64,000 nucleotides of DNA, from assembly GCA_002254845.1 (NCBI GenBank), contig NKPT01000014.1, positions 1-64,000 on the forward strand. Direction: 5' to 3'. How positions within the stretch are numbered: position 1 is the first letter of the stretch; each line of letters opens with the position of its first letter. The translations under genes were made by a program, and so were the position numbers. Of the stretch, positions 18,294-22,121 are shown one piece after another. The notes beneath the pieces are model-generated. The model did no database searches. It was given only the letters and a program-made list of their open reading frames with translations, and had not been told where the DNA came from. Source of the DNA: Chloracidobacterium sp. CP2_5A. Its GTDB lineage: Bacteria > Acidobacteriota > Blastocatellia > Chloracidobacteriales > Chloracidobacteriaceae.

Positions 18294-18674
18294 ATGGAAA
18301 ACCTGGTTATCGAGAAAGCCAAAGCGACGCCGCGCATTGCGTTTGACGCCACCACCGGCGTTCTCGAAATGGAGGGAGATTCCTACCCCGAAAACGCGAT
18401 GCACTTTTACCAGCCTGTCCTGGAGTGGCTGTCCCGCTTTCTGAGCTCGTCTTCTACGCCGGTTACGTTCAATTTTCGTCTCGACTACTTCAACACCAGC
18501 TCCTCGAAGTGCATTATCACGATTTTGGAAATGGTCGAGAACGCGGTGAAGTCCGGCCGGACGGTCACGATGAACTGGCACTACTATGAGGACGACGATG
18601 ATATGAAGGAGCATGGGGAAGAATTCGCTGAAGACTTCTCGATTCCATTCAAATTCGTAGCGATCCCATCCTGA
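18294..18674 (+). CDS. SiaC-family regulatory phosphoprotein (DUF1987)
   Basis: This 126-residue protein matches the SiaC/DUF1987 family. In Pseudomonas aeruginosa SiaC is phosphorylated by SiaB and dephosphorylated by SiaA, and in its unphosphorylated form binds and activates the diguanylate cyclase SiaD. The conserved core RLDYFNTSSSKCI is present. Counting from ATG 18294, the threonine of FNTSS is residue 68, the same number as the phosphosite reported for SiaC. GAGAG lies about ten bases upstream; an in-frame GTG at 18285 is less likely. The kinase gene starts seven bases after the stop. siaA and siaB homologues are not in the window. Confidence 0.85.
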   Translation: MENLVIEKAKATPRIAFDATTGVLEMEGDSYPENAMHFYQPVLEWLSRFLSSSSTPVTFNFRLDYFNTSSSKCIITILEMVENAVKSGRTVTMNWHYYEDDDDMKEHGEEFAEDFSIPFKFVAIPS

Positions 18675-18681
18675 CGGCCGC

Positions 18682-19872
18682 ATGGCTAAGCCCAAACCCA
18701 AAACTGCTGCCGAAGAAGTCTTTGCCGCGGAGTTCGCTGTGCTGAGCGCAGCTGAGCGGATGGCGGCCGCCGGGTCAATGTCGAAGGACGCTTGGCAGCG
18801 CGAGTTTGCGGAGTTGGCGAAAAAGTATCGCGCGCTTTTGAAGCAGGCGGTCAAGATGACTGGCATCGGCGACACGACCCAGAGCCGACTGCTCCGCATT
18901 CAACATGAGCTTGAGGCTAAGAACCGCGAGCTGCTGGAAAAAAACCAGGCCCTCATTCGCGCCCAAGAAGCGCTATTGCAGTCGCAAGCCCGCGCGCAGA
19001 CCATCTTTTCAGCCTACACGGAAGCCCTGCCGGGCACCATTTTGGATGGACGCTACCGACTTGAGCGGAAAATAGGCGCGGGCGGCTACGGCGCCGTCTA
19101 TGAAGCGACGCATCTGGCGCTGAGCACGTCGGTGGCGGTCAAAATTTTGCAGCCGCGGGGGGGCAGCGTGACGCCTGAGGAGCTTGACCGATTCAAGCGC
19201 GAAGGCATTTCGGCCTGCCGCGTCCAGCACCCCAACGCGGTCAATGTGCTTGACTTTGGCATCTCCTCCAACGGCTTCGCTTACCTCGTGATGGAAATCC
19301 TGCACGGGGCGACGCTTGGACAAGAGCTCAAGCGCGTCAGACGGATGACCGCTCGCCGGTGCCTGGAGATTATCCTCCCGGTGGCTTCAGTACTCGCCGA
19401 AGCGCATGCCATGCACATCGTTCACCGCGACATCAAGCCGGACAACATTTTCCTGCACTGTTCGACAACGGGCGAGGTCGTCAAGCTGCTTGATTTCGGG
19501 CTGGCCAAGCTGATGGGCGAGGATGGCTCCCATCCGGAAGCGACCCGCGGATTGATCGTTGGAACGCCGAAGTACATGCCGCCGGAACGGCTTAGCTTCT
19601 TGCCCTATGACGGCCGGTCCGACATTTACAGTCTGGGGGTCGTCATGTATGAAATCCTCGCTGGGCAGCCGCCTTTCACCGCCCAGAACGGCAGTGTTGC
19701 AGCGCTCATGACGGCTCATCTCCAAAGCGCGCCGCCGCCGCTGGCCGCCTTCGCGCCGGACGTGCCGCCGGTCATTGCAGCCGTTACCATGCGCATGCTC
19801 CACAAAGTGCCGGCGGCGCGCCCGACCGCCCAAGAAGTGGTACGCATCTTGAGACCGCTGAGCGACAACTGA
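18682..19872 (+). CDS. Ser/Thr protein kinase with N-terminal SiaD-like coiled stalk
   Basis: The 396-residue product is a Hanks-type kinase (about 125-390) with the glycine loop GAGGYG at 132-137, Lys154 in VAVKIL, HRD at 248-250, DFG at 271-273 and GTPKYMPPE near 294-302. All catalytic residues are present and there is no membrane segment, so it is cytosolic. The first 115 residues are helical: about 40-105 form a heptad-rich coil with YRALLKQAVKMTGIGDTTQS. That segment resembles the YxxLLrq..rL..isDr.q pattern of the stalk that SiaC binds in SiaD. It lies seven bases after the SiaC-like gene, which strongly suggests the two products work together. Confidence 0.9.
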   Translation: MAKPKPKTAAEEVFAAEFAVLSAAERMAAAGSMSKDAWQREFAELAKKYRALLKQAVKMTGIGDTTQSRLLRIQHELEAKNRELLEKNQALIRAQEALLQSQARAQTIFSAYTEALPGTILDGRYRLERKIGAGGYGAVYEATHLALSTSVAVKILQPRGGSVTPEELDRFKREGISACRVQHPNAVNVLDFGISSNGFAYLVMEILHGATLGQELKRVRRMTARRCLEIILPVASVLAEAHAMHIVHRDIKPDNIFLHCSTTGEVVKLLDFGLAKLMGEDGSHPEATRGLIVGTPKYMPPERLSFLPYDGRSDIYSLGVVMYEILAGQPPFTAQNGSVAALMTAHLQSAPPPLAAFAPDVPPVIAAVTMRMLHKVPAARPTAQEVVRILRPLSDN

Positions 19873-19898: not shown

Positions 19899-22121
19899 AT
19901 GGCGTTATTCTCTCGCTCTTTCGACCGTGAAAAAACACTCAAGCAGGCCGAAAAGCACGCTCAGCAGGGGAAGCTCGAGGCAGCCATCAAAGACTACGAG
20001 ACGGTAGCCCGCGTTGATCCGCGGGATGTCACGATTGCCAACATTCTGGGCGATTTGTACCAGCGGTCGAATCGGGTGGAGGAAGCCGCGGAACGCTTCG
20101 CCATGGTTGCCGAGCACTACGTCCGCCACCAACAACTGCCGCAGGCGGCCGCGCTCTACAAGAAAATTATTCGGCTCAAGCCCGACCAGCCGGAATACCC
20201 GCTGGCGCTGGGACATCTCCACCGCAAGCAGGGCGCGCTTGCCGACGCCAAACAGGACTACGAGCTGGCGGCGCAAACGGCTCGCCAGGCCGGGCAGGAA
20301 GGATCGCTCATCGCCGCGCTGCGCGAGCTGATCAAGCTCAATCCGGCGGATGGGCGACTCAAGCGCGACTTGGCGGAAGCCTACTTGCGCGCCGGCCAGC
20401 GAACTGACGCTTTCGAGCAATTTCTGGCGGCGGCGGCGGCGCTCCGGCACAGCGAAGACATTGAGGGCTCGCTGGCAGCCTATGAGCGGGCGTTGGCGAT
20501 GCATCCGGATAGCGTCAGCGCGCTTGGCGGCTACGCGGAAACGTGTATCGCGGGCGGACAGGCGCTCATTGGCTACGAGCGCATTCGCCAGCAAATCAGC
20601 CGCTCGCCCAACAACCTCGAATTGGCGGTGGCTCTAGGTCGCGCTTACCTGAAAGGCGGCGAGCTGGACGCGGCTGAAGCGACCTTCGACCGTCTGTTCG
20701 CCGTTGATCAGAGCCGCTTTGAACATCGCCTCGAAGTGGCGGAATCCTACATCGAGCATGAGCGCCTTGACCGCGCCGTCGACATTGTTCGCAGCCTACT
20801 TGGCATTATCATCGACCGGGGGCAGAAAAAGCGCGCGACGGCAATCCTGCGCAGCGTCATTGAGCGCTCGCCGAGTCACATCGCCGCGATTGAGTGCTTG
20901 GCGGCGGCTTACGAGCGGTCGGGCGAAAAGCGCAAACTGGCCAGCACGCTCGATTTGCTGGCCCAGGCCTATCTGGATGCCGGCCGCGAGGCGGACGCCA
21001 TCCGGGCGCTTGAGCAATCCATTCATCATCAGCCAAGCCGCAAGGCGCGGCGGCGGCTCGAGGCGCTGAAAGGCGAGCCAGCCGCCCCATCGCCAGCGAC
21101 CAGCTTTCCAGAAGGCTTTGAGTCGCCAGCGGCAGCCGGCTACTACGACCGCCTGGCGCAGGCTAATGCAAGCGCCGCGCCGGCTGCCGGGCGAAACGAC
21201 GCCACGTCCGGCGAATATAGCGTGGCGCTGCTCGACAGCCTCCTTGCCCAAAACCCGGAGCTGATGCAGGCGCGCCTCACGCTGGTTGAGCGCATGGTCG
21301 CCAGCCAGCCGGACGCGGTCGAGATGCGTCTCCAGCTCAAGGACATGTATCTGGAATCCGGCCGGAAAACCGACGCGGCCCGCGAGTGCATGGCGCTGGC
21401 GCGGCTTTACCAAGCGCGCGGCGAAAGCGACAAGGCGGCTGACCTGCGCGCCGAGGCCCTGGCGCTTGACCCGAACGCCGAGCTGCTGCCGGTCGCGCCG
21501 GCGGCGGCAACGCCCGCCCCGCCCCTATCCTTTGAAGTGCCCGGCGGGCTAGGCAACCTCCTCCTCCCCAGCTCGCCGGGGCCGGCTTTCGGATCGCCTG
21601 GCGAAATGCCGTTTGGCGCTGGACGCTTGGGCGAGCTTCTGACGCTCGGGCAGTTTCAAAAGCTCCACGAGCGCGAATGGACCCGCGCGGCGCGTCACAG
21701 CTATCCACTGTCCCTGGGCCTGGCACAGCTTGATTTCTTTGAAGCTTATCCAGCCGCCTTTCGGCAGCCCTGCCTTGAAATCGTGGCGGGCTTGTTTGAC
21801 GCGGAGCTGGCGCAGTCCGGCGGACTGGCCGCCTACGATCCGAGCGCCGGCTTTTTGCTGCTCATCCCGGACGCCGATGCCGATCAGGCGCGGGAGACAG
21901 CGGAGGCGCTGCGAAAGTCTGTTCAAAGCAAAGGCATTCCTCACGCGGCGTCGCCCCACCGAACAATGACGCTGAGCGTTGCCATCACCAGCGACCTGCC
22001 GCTGTTCGAGGGCATGCCATTTGACAGGTTCTTCTTGGCGCTGCGCGAAAGCCTGTCCAGCGTGACGACGCGGGGCGGCAACGCGGTCATCGTCGCTCCG
22101 GCCGCCTACCGCCGCTCCTAG
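19899..22121 (+). CDS. TPR-repeat protein with degenerate C-terminal GGDEF-like domain
   Basis: The 740-residue product begins with about ten TPR-type helix pairs (residues 10-385, for example EKHAQQGKLEAAIKDYETVA), an alanine/proline linker, two more TPR-like units (about 435-530) and a second linker. The last 165 residues align with the GGDEF fold: LGELLTLGQFQKLHEREW, PLSLGLAQLDFFEAY, AGFLLLIPDADADQARETAE and TMTLSVAI correspond to successive conserved strands. The catalytic GGDEF loop is replaced by GGLAAYDPS, so cyclase activity is unlikely. It starts 26 bases after the kinase stop and is probably the third gene of the SiaC-kinase operon, perhaps as scaffold or substrate. Confidence 0.85.
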   Translation: MALFSRSFDREKTLKQAEKHAQQGKLEAAIKDYETVARVDPRDVTIANILGDLYQRSNRVEEAAERFAMVAEHYVRHQQLPQAAALYKKIIRLKPDQPEYPLALGHLHRKQGALADAKQDYELAAQTARQAGQEGSLIAALRELIKLNPADGRLKRDLAEAYLRAGQRTDAFEQFLAAAAALRHSEDIEGSLAAYERALAMHPDSVSALGGYAETCIAGGQALIGYERIRQQISRSPNNLELAVALGRAYLKGGELDAAEATFDRLFAVDQSRFEHRLEVAESYIEHERLDRAVDIVRSLLGIIIDRGQKKRATAILRSVIERSPSHIAAIECLAAAYERSGEKRKLASTLDLLAQAYLDAGREADAIRALEQSIHHQPSRKARRRLEALKGEPAAPSPATSFPEGFESPAAAGYYDRLAQANASAAPAAGRNDATSGEYSVALLDSLLAQNPELMQARLTLVERMVASQPDAVEMRLQLKDMYLESGRKTDAARECMALARLYQARGESDKAADLRAEALALDPNAELLPVAPAAATPAPPLSFEVPGGLGNLLLPSSPGPAFGSPGEMPFGAGRLGELLTLGQFQKLHEREWTRAARHSYPLSLGLAQLDFFEAYPAAFRQPCLEIVAGLFDAELAQSGGLAAYDPSAGFLLLIPDADADQARETAEALRKSVQSKGIPHAASPHRTMTLSVAITSDLPLFEGMPFDRFFLALRESLSSVTTRGGNAVIVAPAAYRRS

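Follow-up and report, generated by a model that had tools for sequence, protein, structure and literature searches.

The closest described relative of the locus reported here is the SiaABCD system of Pseudomonas aeruginosa (7E6G; PMC8457831, PMC7647112), in which SiaC carries the triplet N67-T68-S69 and its neighbour, the diguanylate cyclase SiaD, is a stalk-bearing enzyme. In Pseudomonas, mutating this triplet abolishes SiaC-SiaD binding (PMC8457831). The SiaD residues that touch SiaC in the 7E6G structure are R74, K77, V78, R80, I81, S82, D83, R84, Y85, Q86, M88, R90 and D91 (PMC8457831). The eLife study of SiaC and SiaD raises the question of why the cyclase needs a separate activator, and suggests that DUF1987 proteins generally act as modulators of adjacent proteins.

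A second comparison is provided by RsbT and RsbU of the general stress response (PMC12143880): there, the switch partner makes a coiled-coil linker stable and leads the output to dimerise, much as we propose for SiaC and its stalk. The folds and the partner are nonetheless other than those of SiaC, namely RsbT, a kinase homolog, and the N-terminal domain of RsbU. The paper presents the RsbT/RsbU linker as an exchangeable toolkit that serves phosphatases, cyclases and histidine kinases, which the SiaC stalk resembles; no Ser/Thr kinase is listed among its outputs in the passages on this toolkit.

The window, meaning the whole stretch of 64,000 nucleotides analysed here, encodes a SiaC-family protein followed by a Ser/Thr kinase with a SiaD-like N-terminus. 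We consider it probable that the two constitute a partner switch of the SiaABCD type, with a Hanks-type Ser/Thr kinase as its output instead of the diguanylate cyclase SiaD. The features concerned are the following.

18294-18674, forward strand: siaC gene, 126 aa (ATG at 18294, 126 codons, stop TGA at 18672-18674)
18675-18681, forward strand: spacer CGGCCGC, 7 bases, from the TGA of siaC to the ATG of the kinase gene
18682-19872, forward strand: Ser/Thr protein kinase with an N-terminal predicted SiaC-receiver stalk, 396 aa (PF00069, 9.3e-48)
18709-18762, forward strand: N-terminal helix box EEVFAAEFAVLSAAERM (direct reading of translations)
18781-18903, forward strand: stalk core, kinase residues 34-74 (alignments, profile tests)
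18853-18882, forward strand: KMTGIGDTTQ, residues 58-67, aligning with the SiaC-contact motif K77-Q86 of SiaD
18904-19026, forward strand: connector coil leading into the kinase domain, residues 75-115 (likeness to the connector of a REC-linked paralog in genome G007)
19054-19842, forward strand: catalytic kinase domain, residues 125-387 (PF00069, catalytic motifs)
19899-22121, forward strand: TPR protein whose end is GGDEF-like but degenerate (Pfam/NCBIfam models)

The preliminary description of this DNA had placed within 18294-19872 a SiaC-like gene, with Thr68 in FNTSS, and a complete Hanks kinase seven bases after it; the coordinates are right, both reading frames are intact, and Thr68 and all catalytic motifs of the kinase are in place, as detailed below. 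The 7-base spacer is consistent with a single transcript for both genes, and similar spacing recurs in four related genomes (G001, G002, G004 and G005).

The window SiaC matches the Pfam family PF09345 with an E-value of 1.4e-45 (154.3 bits, for a cut-off of 24.5). Its match to the NCBIfam SiaC model NF038265 has an E-value of 2.2e-37 but, at 127.7 bits, lies below the curated cut-off of 150, and so does that of the other SiaC of the same genome (123.9 bits), which is found beside a GGDEF SiaD. Thr68 is identified by residue count, FNTSS beginning at residue 66, and by a phmmer alignment in which this motif is placed gap-free on P. aeruginosa SiaC (6kko, E = 2.2e-27); its codon is ACC at 18495-18497, within YFNTSSSK. 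Residues N67, T68 and S69, together with E110 and D114, are invariant in an alignment of the window SiaC with 14 relatives. Sitting in the N67-T68-S69 triplet by the Pseudomonas numbering, Thr68 is predicted to be phosphorylatable.

The downstream protein has the motifs of a Hanks-type Ser/Thr kinase: a Gly loop (132-139), the catalytic K154 (AVKIL), HRD (248-250, in HRDIKPDN), DFG (271-273) and the APE-like PPE (300-302). PF00069 covers its residues 125-387 with 163 bits (9.3e-48). The GGDEF catalytic domain of SiaD is absent from the protein, the kinase domain standing in its place. Residues 1-118 are matched by no Pfam or NCBIfam model. Genome G007 also encodes a REC-coiled-coil-Ser/Thr kinase paralog (L125:1105-2574), a putative response-regulator-controlled Hanks kinase; it is 54% identical to the window kinase over 329 aa, with a similar connector coil.

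Several comparisons link this N-terminus to SiaD. BLASTP of kinase residues 1-118 against the SiaD of the same genome (G000) gives 33% identity over 87 aa (E = 4e-11), and when eight kinase stalks are aligned to seven stalks of SiaD, hhalign returns 99.5% (E = 2.6e-22). In leave-type-out tests, designed to exclude a generic coiled coil and run on 5031 ORFs, a profile made of SiaD stalks only recovers the window kinase at E = 1.2e-13. Conversely, a profile made of kinase cores only, with the coil tail trimmed, recovers the G000 SiaD at 1.6e-10, and no motif-lacking ORF among the 5031 comes near significance. Searched over the whole of G000, the stalk profile has exactly three matches, namely SiaD, a histidine kinase and the window kinase. 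Against 177,635 distinct PDB sequences, a profile of all stalks, whose sources include two Pseudomonas-like SiaD proteins of Acidobacteriota, finds SiaD of 7e6g at 5.9e-5 with both SiaC sites aligned; the next chain scores 0.25, so 7e6g is the sole significant one. It is not reached in the PDB with the window kinase stalk alone, with kinase stalks alone, with the coil-free kinase core or with non-GGDEF stalks alone. Since profiles devoid of SiaD rows miss it, the link of the kinase stalk to the solved structure runs via intermediates. Homology of the kinase N-terminus to the SiaD stalk, beyond a generic coiled coil, is supported by these profile comparisons, as the preliminary description had anticipated.

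Kinase residues 49-64 read YRALLKQAVKMTGIGD; in the alignment, K58, I62, D64 and Q67 correspond to K77, I81, D83 and Q86 of SiaD. Ser82 of SiaD, which is hydrogen-bonded to Thr68 of SiaC, is replaced by Gly in the window kinase, and Gly occupies this position in several other SiaC-adjacent stalks too, GGDEF proteins included. Across 23 diverse stalks, the Asp of the contact motif is invariant and the Gln nearly so. A larger set of 57 motif-matching stalks, collected with a pattern that itself demands the Asp, has Lys at the first position in 48 cases and Gln at the last in 51. The window stalk would thus offer SiaC a set of SiaD-type predicted binding residues, with Gly for Ser82 and at one site per kinase stalk, versus two in Pseudomonas SiaD. 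The helix box upstream has a pattern, F-x-x-E-x-x-x-L, resembled in other stalk proteins. A fold prediction of an in-frame SiaC-stalk pair of Leptospiraceae, made without interface scores, gives a SiaC pLDDT of ~97 and a pTM of 0.52, values that do not bear on docking.

The gene pair is kept in the Chloracidobacterium family: siaC precedes the stalk kinase gene in nine of the ten genomes examined, across four genera, and the intact kinases are 56-89% identical to that of the window. The pair is broken in one of the nine, G003 (L008/L150), where the kinase is frameshifted within the stalk and the TPR gene is missing; the module there looks to be decaying, or else misassembled. In a sister genome, G006, SiaC, SiaB and any stalk are jointly absent, which we read as a common loss. 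The TPR gene, which lies directly downstream of the kinase gene in the window and whose product has a GGDEF-like C-terminus devoid of the GGDEF motif, is retained in G001 and G005; its product is a possible substrate or scaffold of the kinase.

G007 and G009, which represent two genera, share an operon with the gene order SiaB, SiaC, stalk kinase and FHA/GAF/SpoIIE phosphatase; in this order, the kinase occupies the position of SiaD. The phosphatase genes adjoining the SiaC-linked kinase (L145:8644-10767 and L144:15617-17518; the TPR gene of G007 is placed after the phosphatase gene) may encode a phosphothreonine-sensing counterpart of SiaA. No stalked GGDEF protein was found in either genome, so the single SiaC could serve, among recognisable partners, only the kinase and stalked histidine kinases. 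Compared with P. aeruginosa SiaABCD, the system is alike in having SiaB, elsewhere in the genome for the window and within the operon in G007 and G009. It differs in its output, a Ser/Thr kinase rather than a GGDEF enzyme, in the single SiaC site and the Gly for Ser82, and in the SiaA-type phosphatase, which is not adjacent in the window and which, in G007 and G009, has FHA-GAF input. The earlier proposal that the stalk receiving SiaC is here fused to a kinase fares well on these data: the pair, for which a survey of genomes had been suggested as a check, recurs across the four genera, and the proposal gains as well from the stalk homology, the contact motif and the SiaD position in G007 and G009, docking itself staying a prediction.

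The genome of the window (G000, 3.41 Mb) has a second operon on contig C288, with the order siaC, siaD (GGDEF), siaB and histidine kinase (L001/L018); a named Chloracidobacterium record (L025) has a matching SiaC-SiaD-SiaB-HK locus. Like the window pair, the C288 operon combines a homologous stalk with a SiaC, 58% identical to that of the window and with YFNTSSSKC identical in both. Unlike the pair, it has a GGDEF output and a fourth gene (L018:6034-7038) for a histidine kinase with a SiaC stalk, two of the three stalks of G000 thus being in this operon. It probably feeds both c-di-GMP and a two-component output. SiaB is present in G000 in one copy, on C288, and scores above the NCBIfam SiaB-family cut-off; throughout the window's genus siaB lies outside the siaC-kinase operon. 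Beside the window pair there is no SiaA-type PP2C phosphatase. SpoIIE domains occur at 19 places elsewhere in G000, but no gene of this genome was found to correspond clearly, one to one, to the FHA-GAF-SpoIIE phosphatase.

Three stalks, two SiaC proteins so alike around Thr68 and one SiaB in G000 could mean that the kinase stalk mainly competes for SiaC, or shares it, with SiaD and the histidine kinase. A single pool of SiaC would then set c-di-GMP, two-component and Ser/Thr outputs at once. The case of G009, with one SiaC for three stalk genes, fits such sharing. However, kinase-linked and SiaD-linked SiaC proteins of the window's genus and G008 fall into separate, well supported clades, which argues for dedicated pairs there, and we find sharing as the main role of the stalk rather doubtful. 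It is in any case an extension of the best explanation, not its opposite.

We regard as unlikely another possibility, raised already in the preliminary description, that the kinase phosphorylates Thr68 of SiaC, its stalk being the docking site, so that a kinase-substrate couple would feed the c-di-GMP branch. The adjacency of the genes speaks for it, as do the location of siaB outside this operon in the window's genus and the fact that SiaB and the kinase are both Ser/Thr-directed. Yet SiaB, the established kinase of SiaC, is found in all 14 SiaC genomes checked, being absent from the one that lacks SiaC, and is encoded directly upstream of SiaC and the kinase in G007 and G009. This constant presence makes the kinase less likely as the main Thr68 kinase. 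The SiaC-adjacent stalk is moreover carried by cyclases, histidine kinases and phosphatases, none of which would be expected to act as a Thr68 kinase, and in G007 and G009 such a pathway would find no stalked SiaD to feed.

Among 297 Acidobacteriota, the stalk is detected at E<1e-7 in nine genomes, all nine with SiaC, which itself occurs in 11. Fisher's test for this co-occurrence gives 1.3e-15, or 1.5e-5 at one genome per family (72 families assumed), figures that are partly circular because SiaC loci within this same family and order supplied the profile rows, G235 and G310 being independent. The remaining two SiaC genomes have Pseudomonas-like SiaD genes beside SiaC. Two weak stalk matches outside SiaC genomes cover the coil or a partial motif only. 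It is very improbable that an ordinary coiled coil makes up the N-terminal region and that SiaC is its neighbour by coincidence: the weak PDB matches are dominated by the generic coil of residues 75-115, but the SiaD-stalk match persists with the coil removed, just three places match in the whole genome, the pair spans four genera, and motif-spanning matches at E<1e-7 among the 297 Acidobacteriota are confined to SiaC genomes.

In an independent test on another phylum, built around a Leptospiraceae genome, the stalk turns up in 16 of 393 genomes, and in 14 of these 16 SiaC lies at most 1.5 kb from a stalk gene. Stalks adjoining SiaC are borne by GGDEF proteins, class III cyclases (with or without GAF), histidine kinases, hybrid histidine kinases, PP2C phosphatases and also a small membrane protein; over the two phyla and the sample of others surveyed, the stalk is seen on a Ser/Thr kinase only in the window's family. 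Two of the SiaC-adjacent loci are stalk-PP2C phosphatase fusions (L196:772-1809 and L203:1402-2361); the output of such a switch may in turn have phosphoproteins as its targets. A Leptospiraceae locus (L026) contains SiaB, SiaC and a stalk-GAF-class III cyclase, and upstream of SiaB a 1776-aa protein that matches Ser/Thr kinase and SpoIIE phosphatase queries. A stalk-HD-GYP-like protein, read by eye, occurs at L209 without SiaC nearby. Most of the Bacteroidota SiaB-SiaC operons sampled (within L027-L101, loci mostly of Bacteroidota), often accompanied by large SpoIIE proteins, have no recognisable stalk, which implies that SiaC has further partners.

The preliminary proposal that SiaC acts on a kinase is supported in part, with the kinase as the probable output, and has to be widened, the kinase being one of several stalk-bearing outputs. 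With somewhat less assurance than for the pair itself, we favour the view that the stalk is an exchangeable input domain that plugs the SiaB-SiaC switch into GGDEF cyclases, class III cyclases, histidine kinases, PP2C phosphatases and, in this family, a Ser/Thr kinase, possibly with feedback through the FHA-SpoIIE phosphatase.

For the window pair we now propose the following course: SiaC probably attaches to the stalk and acts as a switch of the kinase, presumably turning it on as it does SiaD. SiaC with an unphosphorylated Thr68 would bind at the K-x-x-x-(I/V)-(S/G)-D-x-x-Q site and hold two stalks as a parallel coiled coil; the connector coil would in turn pair up the two kinase domains in a dimer that is active or changed in some other way. 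Phosphorylation of Thr68 by SiaB would release SiaC, and a SpoIIE/PP2C phosphatase would restore it. If SiaB is their kinase, a single SiaB would serve both SiaC proteins in the window's genus, G000 included. In G007 and G009, the FHA-SpoIIE phosphatase may read the phosphothreonine product of the kinase, closing a feedback loop on SiaC. We infer the physical binding, the dimer step, the substrates and the activating direction, the last from what SiaC does to SiaD.

In the literature searched, which includes few subscription journals, we found no description of a SiaC output other than SiaD. The gene pairs observed here make concrete the suggestion that DUF1987 proteins modulate their neighbours: a single switch protein and a single docking stalk recur with many enzymes. 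Should the proposal be right, a helical stalk places a Hanks kinase under the control of a Ser/Thr phosphorylation switch, and a short sequence motif would allow one to predict what SiaC acts on in many bacteria that are still uncharacterised. Altogether, these findings suggest that the SiaC switch, so far tied to a c-di-GMP enzyme, is a plug-in control part for many enzymes.
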